This document shows, piece after piece, positions 7,621 to 12,638 of a stretch of 64,000 nucleotides of DNA. A program made the position numbers and the translations under genes. The stretch's first letter is position 1. The number at the start of each line of letters is the position of its first letter. Origin of the DNA: Roseicella frigidaeris (GTDB lineage: Bacteria; Pseudomonadota; Alphaproteobacteria; Acetobacterales; Acetobacteraceae); assembly GCF_003258945.1 (NCBI RefSeq), contig NZ_QLIX01000002.1, positions 434,843 to 498,842 of the forward strand. The letters run 5' to 3'. The notes below the pieces were generated by a model. That model ran no database searches, had not been told where the DNA came from, and saw only the letters and a program-made list of their open reading frames with translations.

Positions 7621-9207
7621 TCAGGCGCGGTGGATGCCGTAGAAAAGGGCGACGCCCTTCAGCGTGCCCTGCAGATCGGCGCGGAGGGCGGTCGGCGAGA
7701 AGAACTGGCCGAGCGGCACATAGGGCACCTCCTCGAAGGCCACCTGTTGCATCTCCCGCCCGATCCGCGCGCGCGCCGGGTCGTCGGGCGCATCGAACCA
7801 GGCGTCGCGCAGCGTCTCCAGCCGCGGAATGGTCGGCCAGCCGAACACGGCCGCACGGCCATGGCCGCGGATCAGGTTGTTCGCCGCCGGGTTCACCTGG
7901 GCGCTGCCGGCGCTGTAGCTGACCATCATGTTCCAGCCGCCCTGCGCCACCGGATCCTGCTTCAGGATGCGCTGCGTGACCGTGCCCCAGTCGGTGGCGA
8001 CATAGTCGAGGTTGACGCCGCCGCGCCGGAGATAGTCGCCGCAGACCTCGCTCATGGCGTTGATGACCGGGAAGTCCGTCGCCGCCAGCAGGTTCACCCG
8101 CTCATCCTTGTAGCCCGCCTCGGCCAGGGCGCGCTTCATGCCGCCGGCATCGAGCGGCTGGCGGAGGGCCTCGAGGCCGACATCGCTCGCCATGACCGAG
8201 CCCGGCGCGAAGAAGCCGTAGGGCACGTGCCAATAGGTCCGGTCGTCGCCGGCCGCGGCCGTCATCGCATCCACCTGGTTGGTGCCGCGCAGGATGGCGC
8301 GGCGGATCGCCGGGTTGTCGAAGGGCGGGTTCAGGCAGTTGAAGCGGAGGAAGCCAACCGAGCCGTTGGGGTCAAGGACGTCGATCTTCAGGCCGCGGCT
8401 GCGCTTCAGCGCGCCGACCAGGTCGATCGCCGGCTGTTCCCACCAATCCACCTCGCCGCGCTGCAGGGCGGCGCTGGCGGTCGCGCCGTCCGGGATGGTC
8501 AGCCATTCCACGCGGTCGAAGAAGACGCGCTTGCCGCCACTCAGATAGCTGGCCGGCTCGGGGCGCGGCCGGTAGTCCGGGTTGCGCTCATAGACGTTGC
8601 GGCTGCCCGGGACCCGCTCGGCCGCGACGTAGCGGAAGGGACCGCTGCCGATGATCTCCGGCACCGCCTGCGAGGAGGGAAGCAGCGCGTGCCGCTCCGG
8701 CATCATGACGCAGAGATGCGTGCCGACCTTGGCGAGGGCGGCGTCGAGGAGCGGGAAGGGCTTCTTCAGGCGGAAGACGATGCGGCGGTCATCGGCGGCG
8801 GCGAGCTCGTCGGTCGCGGCCCAGAGCGCCTGGCCGAAAGCGTCGCGCGTCGCCCAGCGGCGGATCGAGGCGACGCAATCCCGCGCCCGCACCGGCTCTC
8901 CGTCGTGGAAGCGGAGGCCTTCGCGCAGGGTGATGGTGGCGCGTCGGCCCTCCTCCTCGAAGGCCGGCGGGCCATCGGCCATCTGTGGCTGCGCCCGCAG
9001 CCCGGCATCCCAGCCATAGAGCGTGTCGTAGACCAGCAGCGCGTGGTTGCGGGTGACGAAGGCGACCGAGTGGATCGGGTCGAGCAGCGCCAGGTCGGCC
9101 TGGGGCACGAAGCGCAGCACGCCGCGGCCGGGGGTGGTCTGGGCGGCGGCGAGGCGCGGCGCGGCGAGCGCCAACCCCATGGAGCCCAGGAGATGACGTC
9201 GGCGCAT
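7621..9207 (-). CDS. Periplasmic peptide/nickel-type ABC substrate-binding protein (SBP family 5)
   Basis: 528 residues. MRRRHLLGSMGLALAAPRLA followed by AAAQ is a twin-arginine type signal peptide. The mature part has the family-5 pattern: RFVPQADLALLDPIHS, then ITLREGLRFHDGEPVRARDCVASIRRW, GSGPFRYVAAERVPGS, and CLNPPFDNPAIRRAIL. It would bind an oligopeptide or similar solute in the periplasm and pass it to an inner-membrane permease. No permease or ATPase genes adjoin it here, so it is an orphan binding protein in this window or uses a transporter encoded elsewhere. It is divergent from the fusion enzyme at 9492. Confidence 0.85.
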   Translation of the reverse strand: MRRRHLLGSMGLALAAPRLAAAQTTPGRGVLRFVPQADLALLDPIHSVAFVTRNHALLVYDTLYGWDAGLRAQPQMADGPPAFEEEGRRATITLREGLRFHDGEPVRARDCVASIRRWATRDAFGQALWAATDELAAADDRRIVFRLKKPFPLLDAALAKVGTHLCVMMPERHALLPSSQAVPEIIGSGPFRYVAAERVPGSRNVYERNPDYRPRPEPASYLSGGKRVFFDRVEWLTIPDGATASAALQRGEVDWWEQPAIDLVGALKRSRGLKIDVLDPNGSVGFLRFNCLNPPFDNPAIRRAILRGTNQVDAMTAAAGDDRTYWHVPYGFFAPGSVMASDVGLEALRQPLDAGGMKRALAEAGYKDERVNLLAATDFPVINAMSEVCGDYLRRGGVNLDYVATDWGTVTQRILKQDPVAQGGWNMMVSYSAGSAQVNPAANNLIRGHGRAAVFGWPTIPRLETLRDAWFDAPDDPARARIGREMQQVAFEEVPYVPLGQFFSPTALRADLQGTLKGVALFYGIHRA

Positions 9208-9309
9208 GGCGATCCCTTCCGGCGGCGTGGCGCAGGGAATGCTGCAGTGCGGCAGTCGGTCGGGTCAACCGGGACGAGGGCGGGCGCCGTCTTGCGAGGC
9301 GCCGGCATC

Positions 9310-9491
9310 AACGCGGCGATCGTCGCCAGCCCGGCCAATTCTTTCTCGCAACAACTGGCTCGCCCCCCTCACAACCTAATGATTATCGATGCCTCGCAGG
9401 ATTAATGAACGATTGGTAATGTGAAAACATGATATTGGAGTGAGACGCTGCTGTGTCTTTTGTTGCCATAAACGAGCAGAAAGAGCATTCC
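9310..9491. promoter_or_regulatory. AT-rich divergent intergenic region upstream of the fusion enzyme
   Basis: This stretch is clearly richer in A and T than its surroundings, with runs such as TAATGATTATCGATG and GGATTAATGAACGATTGG and a small hairpin ATGT-GAAA-ACAT at 9419-9430. It separates the divergent binding-protein gene and the ANL-ACP-GNAT gene and must hold the promoter of at least the latter. No convincing -35/-10 pair could be assigned by eye. Confidence 0.4.
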
Positions 9492-12400
9492 ATGGCATTA
9501 GATGGAATGATGCCATCCCAACTCCGTGATTTCTCTGACGTCCTTGGCCGCAATGTTGCACGACAGTTCTCGAACTACTGGGAACTCGATCGCTTTTCTG
9601 CTGAAGAATTCCGGCAATTCTGGTCCTGTTTTCTTTCCTGGTCGAATCTTCCCCGCAGCGGCGACGAAGCGACCGTCTGCGTCGGCGATGCCGCCGAGAC
9701 CGCGGTCTTCTTCCCGGACCTGCGGCTGAATTACGCGGAATGCCTGCTGCAGGGTCCGGCCGGGGCGCCGGTGCTGACCGCCTGCCACGGCATAGGCCTG
9801 GCCGCAACCGAGCGGCTGACGCGAGGCGAGCTGCGGTCCCGCGTCGCGCGCCTGGCCGCGGCGCTGCGCCGTCTCGGCGTCGCGCCCGGCGACCGGGTGG
9901 CGGCCGTCGCCCGCAACAATGCCGAGATGATCGTCGTGGCCCTGGCCGCCGCGGCGGTGGGCGCGGTGCTGGCGAATTGCACCCCCGACATGGGCAGCGT
10001 GGCGCTGCGGGCCCGGCTGGCGCCGCTCGCGCCGCGGGTCGTTTTCGCCAATCTCGAACCCATGCCCTGGGATCGTGGCCAGCCGCTGGCGGAGCGGGTC
10101 GTCGAGCTGCTCGCCGCGCTGCCGAGCGTCGCCGCCGTGATCGCGCTCGACGCGGGGGACCTCGCCGCGCCTCGCGCTGTGCCGCTGCACCACCTGCGGC
10201 GGCTCGTGCGGGCTGGGGCGGAGGAGTGGCATGCCTGGCCGCACCTGCCCTTCAACCACCCGCTCGTCGTCCTGTTCTCCTCCGGCACCACCGGGCAGCC
10301 GAAATGTATCCTGCACGGCGCCGGAGGCACGCTCATCGAGCATCTGAAGGAGCATCGGCTGCATTGCGACCTGCGGCCGGGCGACCGGATGTTCTTCCAG
10401 ACGAGCTGCGGCTGGATGATGTGGAACTGGCAGCTCAGCGCGCTGGCCTCCGGCGCCGAGATCCTGGTCTATGACGGGCCGCTCGAATCGCCGGCGCTGT
10501 TCTGGCAACTCGTCGCGGCGCATGGCGTCACGGTCTTCGGCACCAACCCGGCCTATCTCCAGCACTGCGAGGCGGCTGGCCTGACGCCCGGCCGGGACCA
10601 TGACCTCCATCAGCTGCGCCTCGTGCTCTCGACCGGGTCGCCACTCCGGCCACGGCAGTTCGCCTGGGTGGCCGAGGCGGTGAAGCCCCTGCCGCTGCAC
10701 TCCATCTCCGGCGGCACGGATGTCATCGGCTGTTTCGTCCTCGGCCATCCCTCGCTTCCCGTGCATGCCGGGGAATCACCCTGCCGGAGCCTCGGGCTCG
10801 ACATCCGCGCGCTGCCGCGGCCCGAGGCGGCGACAGACCGACAGGGGACTGCCCAACAGGAGACCGCCCAACAGGAGACTGCCCGGCAGGGCGAGCTCAT
10901 CTGCGCCAACCCCTTTCCCTCCCGGCCCCTCGGCTTCTTCGGCGAGACGGATGGCCGTCGCTTCCACGAGAGCTACTTCGCGGCCAATCCCGGCGTCTGG
11001 ACCCATGGCGACCTGGTCGAGCACACGCCGCGGGGCGGCTGGACGGTGCTCGGGCGCAGCGACAGCGTGCTCAAGATCCGCGGTATCCGGGTCGGGCCGG
11101 CCGAAATCTACGCGATCCTCGAATCCTTCGAGGACATCGCCGAGGCGATGGCCGTCGCGCAGGAGGCCGAGGAGGAGCCGGGCGGCCAGCGGCTGGTGCT
11201 GCTGGTCGTCCTTCGCCCGGGCCGACGGCTCGATCCGGATCTGGCCCGGCGTATTCGCAGGGCCCTCGGCCAGCGGGGCGCCTCGCATCTGGTTCCGGGA
11301 CGCATCCTGGCCGTCGACGCCCTGCCGTTGACCCAGAGCGGCAAGCGCTCGGAGGCGGCGGCGCGCGACGCCGTCAATGGCCGGGCGGCGCGCAACCGCG
11401 ATGCCTTGCGGAATCCGGAATGCCTGGCATCGATCACCGCCTCGATCGGTGCCGGCCCGCGATGCCGGGACACCTCGCAGGGGACCGGACCGCACGGCGC
11501 CGAGGCCGACCCGATGGCGGCGCGGCTGACCGCGCTGTGCGAGTCGATCCTCGACCTGCCGGAGCTCGGTCCGGCCGACGACCTGCTCGAGCTCGGGGCG
11601 GATTCGCTCCGGATGCTGTCGCTGCTGCTCGCGGTGGAGCGGGAGTTCGGCCAGCGGCTATCGGTCACGGCGCTGTTCTCCGCTCCGACCATCGATGGCC
11701 TGCTCGCGCAGTTGCGGGGCCGTTCGCCGGCCGCCCCGGGGGTGGTGGCCAAGGCCGCGGGCGCACCGCGGATCCGGCCGGTCACGCCCGCTGATCTCGA
11801 GCCTCTCGCGCGCCTCCTGGCTGCCGGCTTCGGTGAGTCCGGCATCGGGCCGGCGCAGTGGCGCCACCTGTTCGGGCCGCCCTGGCCGGACGATGGCGGC
11901 AGCTGGGGCTGGCTGCTGACCGTGGATGAGGCGATCGTCGGCGTCCTCGGCACGGTGCGCGCGCGCCATCCGCTGCGGGGCGACGCGCCGCTGTGCAACC
12001 TCTCCTCCTGGTACGTGCATCCCGACTACCGTGGCTGGGGCAGCGCCCTGCTCGTCGCCGCGCTGGGCGAGGCGGACGCCACCTGGACCAGCTTCACGCC
12101 GTCGTCCCTGTCGCTACAGGCCCTCGCAGCGCTCGATTTCCGCCGCCTCGATACCGCCCGGATCTTCCTGCCGCCGCTGGCGCATGCCGAGACGCTCGCC
12201 GCCCCGGGGCTGCGGATCGATTGCGCGCCGGCGACCGTGCGCGGGCTGCTCGATCCGGCCGAGCGGCAGGTCTTCGACGACCATGCGCCCTTCGACTGCC
12301 TGCAGATGGTGGCGCGCGACGCGACGGAGCGGGCCTATCTCGTCCTCAAGCGGCGGCGGGACCCGCTGCCAGGCGGGCTGCGCCGCTTGCCGCTGCGGGT

Positions 12401-12638
12401 CGCCTATTCCGAGTTGCTCTACTGCAGCGCGCCCGCCCTGCTGGCGCGGCATCTCGAGCGCATCAAGCTCGCCGTGCTGGCGCGGCAGCGGACGCTCGGC
12501 CTGGTGGTGGATGCCCGGCTCTGGGCGACGCCGCCGCGCGGACGGCGGCTGTCGAGCCATGCCATGTTCCGCTCCGCGAGGCTTGGGGCCGAAGCGGTGG
12601 ACAAGCTCTATTCCGAGCTGGTGCTGCTGCCGGTCTGA
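9492..12638 (+). CDS. Three-domain fusion: acetoacetyl-CoA-synthetase-like ligase, acyl carrier domain, GNAT acyltransferase
   Basis: 1048 residues from the ATG at 9492, six bases after AAAGAG; a GTG at 9453 is an alternative in-frame start. Residues ~1-625 are an adenylating (ANL) enzyme of acetoacetyl-CoA synthetase type: FFPDLRLNYAECLL, the P-loop SSGTTGQPK (263-271), FQTSCGWMMWNW, SGGTDVIGCFVLGHP, and the C-terminal lysine in QSGKRSE (K618). Residues ~660-740 form a carrier domain with LELGADSLRML, in which S705 would carry phosphopantetheine. Residues ~761-1048 begin with a GNAT fold: IRPVTPADLEPLARLL, then HPDYRGWGSALL with the RxxGxG/A acetyl-CoA loop at R847. All key residues seem intact. 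A 15-bp repeat makes an AQQET-rich linker. Inferred action: activate an acid, load it on its own carrier, and acylate an amine. The gene has no operon partners. Confidence 0.85.
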   Translation: MALDGMMPSQLRDFSDVLGRNVARQFSNYWELDRFSAEEFRQFWSCFLSWSNLPRSGDEATVCVGDAAETAVFFPDLRLNYAECLLQGPAGAPVLTACHGIGLAATERLTRGELRSRVARLAAALRRLGVAPGDRVAAVARNNAEMIVVALAAAAVGAVLANCTPDMGSVALRARLAPLAPRVVFANLEPMPWDRGQPLAERVVELLAALPSVAAVIALDAGDLAAPRAVPLHHLRRLVRAGAEEWHAWPHLPFNHPLVVLFSSGTTGQPKCILHGAGGTLIEHLKEHRLHCDLRPGDRMFFQTSCGWMMWNWQLSALASGAEILVYDGPLESPALFWQLVAAHGVTVFGTNPAYLQHCEAAGLTPGRDHDLHQLRLVLSTGSPLRPRQFAWVAEAVKPLPLHSISGGTDVIGCFVLGHPSLPVHAGESPCRSLGLDIRALPRPEAATDRQGTAQQETAQQETARQGELICANPFPSRPLGFFGETDGRRFHESYFAANPGVWTHGDLVEHTPRGGWTVLGRSDSVLKIRGIRVGPAEIYAILESFEDIAEAMAVAQEAEEEPGGQRLVLLVVLRPGRRLDPDLARRIRRALGQRGASHLVPGRILAVDALPLTQSGKRSEAAARDAVNGRAARNRDALRNPECLASITASIGAGPRCRDTSQGTGPHGAEADPMAARLTALCESILDLPELGPADDLLELGADSLRMLSLLLAVEREFGQRLSVTALFSAPTIDGLLAQLRGRSPAAPGVVAKAAGAPRIRPVTPADLEPLARLLAAGFGESGIGPAQWRHLFGPPWPDDGGSWGWLLTVDEAIVGVLGTVRARHPLRGDAPLCNLSSWYVHPDYRGWGSALLVAALGEADATWTSFTPSSLSLQALAALDFRRLDTARIFLPPLAHAETLAAPGLRIDCAPATVRGLLDPAERQVFDDHAPFDCLQMVARDATERAYLVLKRRRDPLPGGLRRLPLRVAYSELLYCSAPALLARHLERIKLAVLARQRTLGLVVDARLWATPPRGRRLSSHAMFRSARLGAEAVDKLYSELVLLPV
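10847..10891 (+). repeat. Three tandem 15-bp units inside the fusion gene
   Basis: GACTGCCCAACAGGA, GACCGCCCAACAGGA and GACTGCCCGGCAGGG follow each other at 10847, 10862 and 10877. They encode a repeated TAQQE-type pentapeptide within the ligase C-terminal region. The unit is a multiple of three, so copy number could change without breaking the frame. Confidence 0.85.

Follow-up and report, generated by a model that had tools for sequence, protein, structure and literature searches.

In butirosin biosynthesis, a ligase, a carrier, and a decarboxylase among the proteins BtrJ/BtrI/BtrK/BtrH build an acyl chain that is placed on the amine of an amino sugar. Among these proteins, BtrH is papain-like (PMC2922099). 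The biosynthesis of SB-203208 uses the ligase SbzL, the carriers SbzG and SbzK, and the GNAT N-acyltransferase SbzI, which are separate proteins whose roles have been biochemically proven (PMC6331615), and the same paper cites the N-acyl amino acid synthase FeeM as a GNAT-like N-acyltransferase that uses an acyl carrier. Fungal A-T-TE NRPS-like enzymes combine an adenylation domain, a carrier, and one off-loading domain and act alone on a keto acid (PMC9047271). The present study concerns a single gene of Roseicella frigidaeris, located in a 64,000-nucleotide stretch of contig NZ_QLIX01000002.1 (hereafter the window), whose product joins an acetoacetyl-CoA-synthetase (AACS)-like adenylating ligase, a phosphopantetheine carrier domain, and a GNAT-family region. 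We regard it as an unusual assembly of known parts and a putative variant of carrier-based N-acylation; no description of AACS-carrier-GNAT or AACS-carrier-thioesterase proteins was found in the open-licence literature.

Architecture and locus of the fusion gene

The fusion gene occupies 9492..12638 on the + strand as an ORF of 1048 aa, with an alternative GTG start upstream at 9453. Pfam matches to its product included AMP-binding (8e-44), AMP-binding_C (2.5e-9), and PP-binding (PF00550, 3.6e-12). The ligase (residues 9-645; 9516..11426, +) was recognized by conserved columns and by the NCBIfam acetoacetate--CoA ligase equivalog TIGR01217, which it passed with 566.3 bits against a cut-off of 520.9, and it contains the motifs SSGTTGQPK (263-271), GWMMWNW (307-313), and SISGGTD (404-410) and the catalytic Lys618 within PLTQSGK. 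The carrier domain (residues 678-739; 11523..11708, +) bears Ser705 in LGADSL, giving the protein the order of a one-module NRPS-like enzyme, in which a carrier with its phosphopantetheine serine comes after the adenylation domain. The C-terminal region (residues 757-1048, ~290 aa; 11760..12635, +) includes Arg847 in the loop YRGWGSA, the family-invariant His931, and a conserved YSE (1040-1042) close to the C-terminus.

The original prediction, made from the sequence alone, had proposed this ligase-carrier-GNAT order with an intact P-loop, Lys618, Ser705, and Arg847, and the profile searches bear out the order; every one of these residues lies where it was predicted. The domain search that it called for was clear for AMP-binding and PP-binding, but Acetyltransf_1 fell under its cut-off of 20.7 in the window protein (15.2 bits, E=0.027); because this match was weak, assigning the GNAT region required evidence at the level of the family. 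Two homologues with the same fusion passed Pfam GNAT cut-offs (L136, Acetyltransf_1, 27.0 against 20.7; L056, from Bradyrhizobium, Acetyltransf_9, 25.8 against 25), a 16-sequence family profile matched the solved GNAT 2q0y (E=4e-5), and Arg847 was invariant in 32/32 aligned GNAT-family members. By sequence profile, the C-terminal region thus belongs to the GNAT superfamily, within which no Pfam, NCBIfam, or PDB entry matched its own family specifically. An AlphaFold model of residues 754-1048, built from a two-sequence input (the window protein and L056), had a pLDDT of 48.5, too low to serve as a structure model.

Comparison with the fusion of the congener G003 gave dN/dS values of about 0.28-0.38 in the ligase, the carrier, and both halves of the GNAT region, with the inter-domain linkers as the sole relaxed parts. 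All three parts of the fusion are under purifying selection against the congener, and since dN/dS is about 0.3 in every domain, the fusion is a three-domain protein maintained by selection. The possibility that a frameshift or an assembly error had merged the domains by chance was considered and ruled out, as the architecture recurs at 74% identity in G003 and at 55% identity (best segment, with the match spanning residues 9-1048) in Bradyrhizobium sp. AUGA SZCCT0158; the dN/dS values contradict such an artefact as well.

The gene was predicted to stand alone, and this held: its neighbors encode an SBP_bac_5 protein, a PTA_PTB protein, an alcohol dehydrogenase, and a class II aldolase, all of unrelated metabolism or transport, and no ketosynthase or polyketide genes were found near it. 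The intergenic stretch between the divergent substrate-binding-protein gene and the fusion gene (9208..9491) is A+T-richer than its surroundings (58.5% G+C versus 71.9% in the window) and is part of an insertion missing in the congeners G001 and G004. The fusion gene separates the substrate-binding-protein gene from a small gene in the window and G003, whereas in G001 and G004 these two flanking genes adjoin directly; the contiguity of the flanks there indicates either that a single accessory gene was inserted or that G001 and G004 have lost it, which fits a function requiring no nearby partner gene. The divergent neighbor (7624-9207) is itself a member of a large SBP_bac_5 paralogue family, for which each congener genome has 15 to 21 strong matches.

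Carrier-bearing relatives of acetoacetyl-CoA synthetase

At least six AACS-carrier-GNAT fusions were found in Acetobacteraceae, Bradyrhizobium, and one other alphaproteobacterial family (the window, G003, G406, G188, G640, and Bradyrhizobium sp. AUGA SZCCT0158), a lower bound given that the whole-protein contig search listed almost exclusively stand-alone AACS. Across 397 Acetobacteraceae genomes, 14 carrier-bearing AACS proteins were present in 13 genomes. On a ligase-carrier model these proteins scored 840-1276 bits and were separated by a clean gap from stand-alone AACS, which end near position 640 and scored about 590-650 bits in Acetobacteraceae and 570-695 in the phylum; of 87 stand-alone AACS whose ORF ends were read by eye, none had a C-terminal extension. 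Every carrier-bearing relative without a GNAT domain has a thioesterase whose GxSxGG motif is intact, and such AACS-carrier-thioesterase proteins also occur in Cupriavidus, Caballeronia, and Paraburkholderia. The carrier serine, whose absence from homologues would have spoken against a relay, was present in all carrier-bearing relatives read at the sequence level. The Cupriavidus (WP_078201666.1; L175:9905-12994) and Caballeronia (WP_244817717.1; L176:9914-12982) proteins are annotated as plain acetoacetate--CoA ligase, a name explained by the equivalog model covering the ligase part alone.

In the ligase tree, the carrier-bearing ligases (six fusions and 14 thioesterase proteins) formed one clade with a support of 100 on a branch of 1.12, and the window's fusion did not group with any of the 87 stand-alone AACS. 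In a more careful tree with AACS as outgroup, the deepest carrier-bearing branches had thioesterases and the GNAT group (99/98) was nested inside them (94/94), a placement that suggests the thioesterase was exchanged for a GNAT once, in a single lineage. The GNAT-domain tree united the domains of the six fusions in one clade (97/94), as expected from a single fusion event. Sfp-like PPTase genes adjoin several of the thioesterase sisters, found by tblastn in G020, G165, and G1073 and by sequence reading in G091 and G090 (L040:7252-7968, L232:7779-8411, L230:8126-8986, and the flanks of L210 and L196), and none adjoined the GNAT fusions examined. About 2 kb upstream of the G188 fusion lie genes for a second ligase and a discrete carrier, together with one for a 363-aa protein that matches no Pfam model (L137:2523-5518), in a region that also contains asparagine-synthase-like genes.

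Stand-alone relatives of the GNAT region

The neighborhoods of stand-alone GNAT relatives were surveyed at 15 loci in 14 genomes, with Poisson expectations that take loci as independent though some genomes are related. On this basis, a Pfam carrier gene lay within 3.5 kb of the GNAT relative at 8/15 loci (0.14 expected) and a Pfam NodB gene at 6/15 (0.13 expected). On pSymB of Sinorhizobium meliloti (L172:11953-17639), the genes after the GNAT relative encode an exosortase-A-associated AMP ligase, a PLP decarboxylase, a phosphopantetheine-binding protein, and a polysaccharide deacetylase, all amid glycosyltransferases, and Aureimonas pAU20a (L174:10759-16625) has a similar set. NodB and/or polysaccharide genes also lie near GNAT relatives in Paludibaculum and on Sulfitobacter and Shinella plasmids, and at L143 and L167 a NodB gene, a carrier, a ligase, a FabG-like SDR, and the GNAT occur together. 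At L138 and L139 a NodB-like deacetylase domain (by sequence reading, with no Pfam call) precedes the GNAT in one fused protein, encoded beside a carrier gene. These associations suggest a carrier-bound acyl donor and, possibly, a deacetylated amino sugar as the acceptor, and the family, which is without a dedicated model in Pfam or NCBIfam, likely N-acylates glycans.

Two further arrangements were observed. The loci of the NodB-GNAT fusions in G320 and G138 (L138:4522-9899 and L139:8234-13515) are operon-like and also encode a 2-oxo-acid-dehydrogenase-like E1, a lipoyl E2, and the small carrier, possibly providing an alternative route to the acyl donor. On a plasmid of Rhizobium sp. T1470 (L181:9854-15122), a GNAT relative is accompanied by an SDR, an adenylate-forming enzyme, and a CmlS-like halogenase.

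Proposed mechanism and comparison with known systems

We propose, with a probability of roughly 55%, that the fusion is a one-module carrier-relay N-acyl synthase that places a small beta-keto or beta-hydroxy acyl group onto an amine. The ligase would adenylate the acid, most likely acetoacetate or 3-hydroxybutyrate judging by its family and conserved motifs; an acetoacetate-like acid is probable, since each of the ten carrier-bearing proteins compared retains 99 of 167 AACS-invariant columns, including GWMMWNW, SISGGTD, and Lys618. The acyl group would then be loaded onto the phosphopantetheine at Ser705, as the thioesterase-bearing sisters strongly suggest. Because all GNAT-less sisters have a thioesterase, the common core appears to be a ligase-carrier pair requiring an off-loading domain, and the GNAT-family domain is predicted to occupy the thioesterase's off-loading place and to pass the carrier-bound acyl group to an amine, yielding an amide. 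The acceptor would most likely be an amino sugar belonging to a glycan, either secreted or on the surface, given the gene neighborhoods of the stand-alone relatives. An SDR able to convert a beta-keto into a beta-hydroxy acyl group recurs in the discrete clusters. Bacterial amino sugars are known to bear 3-hydroxybutyryl as an N-acyl group (PMC3210612), a modification to which the fusion protein may be linked. The thioesterase sisters, the association of GNAT and carrier genes, and the proven discrete systems make the relay to an amine the best-supported mechanism. The self-contained N-acylation of the original prediction survives in this form, although an amino sugar, instead of a free small molecule, may be what accepts the acyl group.

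Several observations count against this proposal. The search of the window's genome yielded a single ACPS-fold PPTase, and no PPTase gene adjoins the fusion gene, unlike in several thioesterase sisters; among the fusions only those of G188 and G406 lie close to polysaccharide genes (the copies in the window, G003, and Bradyrhizobium do not); and the GNAT region gave no usable structure model. We also considered whether the loss of CoA-binding residues could prove that the carrier is loaded, and rejected this argument: Arg195 of the window ligase aligns with Arg194, the CoA-site arginine of Acs, and position 195, altered in most members, is still Arg in the window and G003. With this basic residue kept, the ligase may use CoA directly or make a CoA thioester.

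The retained arginine is one reason to consider a catabolic acetoacetate-CoA ligase that makes acetoacetyl-CoA, with the carrier and GNAT as accessories and the GNAT using the CoA thioester or acetyl-CoA; passage of the AACS equivalog model and the lack of a further clear AACS in the window's genome point the same way. We nevertheless find this reading distinctly unlikely, as it must accommodate a conserved carrier serine, conserved GNAT motifs, selection of similar strength in all domains, and 14 AACS-invariant columns altered throughout the carrier-bearing clade, and the AACS pathway appears dispensable in Acetobacteraceae, since most of the 397 sampled genomes have no strong AACS. If the carrier is loaded as proposed, the GNAT could instead transfer the acyl group to a hydroxyl, to a protein, or to another carrier acting as its partner (e.g., CurA-type starter loading): SbzC is a GNAT that performs O-acyl transfer from a carrier (PMC6331615). 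This we hold to be unlikely, because no polyketide machinery lies nearby and the relatives adjoin polysaccharide deacetylases, which generate free amines. A self-regulated AACS, in which the GNAT is a built-in regulator acetylating Lys618, has a precedent in Streptomyces lividans, where the GNAT SlPatA acetylates and inactivates SlAacS (PMC4053389), and Lys618 within PLTQSGK is a plausible target; it leaves the conserved carrier and the thioesterase sisters unexplained, however, and the stand-alone GNAT kin adjoin carriers and NodB deacetylases in place of lone ligases, making it very improbable.

Returning to the amine relay, an evolutionary version of it is offered more tentatively, at somewhat short of even odds: the thioesterase of an AACS-carrier enzyme would have been swapped for a polysaccharide-associated GNAT, giving a single-gene amide synthase that attaches an acetoacetyl-like group to an amine, such as that of an amino sugar, and that is gained or lost as one gene. 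The analysis reveals a group of one-module synthetases derived from AACS, ending in either of two alternative and putatively off-loading domains, that automated annotation calls acetoacetate-CoA ligase. Because a single polypeptide combines activation, carrier, and the predicted transfer, one purified protein is enough for testing the relay, and the question of the acceptor can be approached in S. meliloti through the stand-alone pSymB relative.

Stand-alone AACS (TIGR01217; SlAacS structure 4wd1) share with the fusion the ligase fold at about 40% identity, the catalytic Lys, GWMMWNW, and SISGGTD but stop after the ligase, where the fusion continues with a carrier and a GNAT. The AACS-carrier-thioesterase proteins of Acetobacteraceae and Burkholderiaceae share the ligase-carrier core and its clade but off-load by a thioesterase and often have an adjacent Sfp-like PPTase gene. 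The fungal A-T-TE enzymes, which use aromatic alpha-keto acids and a thioesterase, are closer to these sisters than to the GNAT form. Butirosin side-chain assembly resembles the GNAT clusters of S. meliloti pSymB and Aureimonas pAU20a, whereas it differs from the fusion in that BtrH is not a GNAT and the proteins are discrete. FeeM, a separate protein that handles long-chain acyl groups, is likened to the fusion by function. The Sbz systems likewise consist of separate proteins, use other acids, and belong to an antibiotic cluster, and they are likened to the fusion by function: in both SbzL/SbzG,K/SbzI and SbzB/SbzG,K/SbzC, an adenylating ligase loads a carrier from which a GNAT takes the acyl group, as in the relay proposed here.
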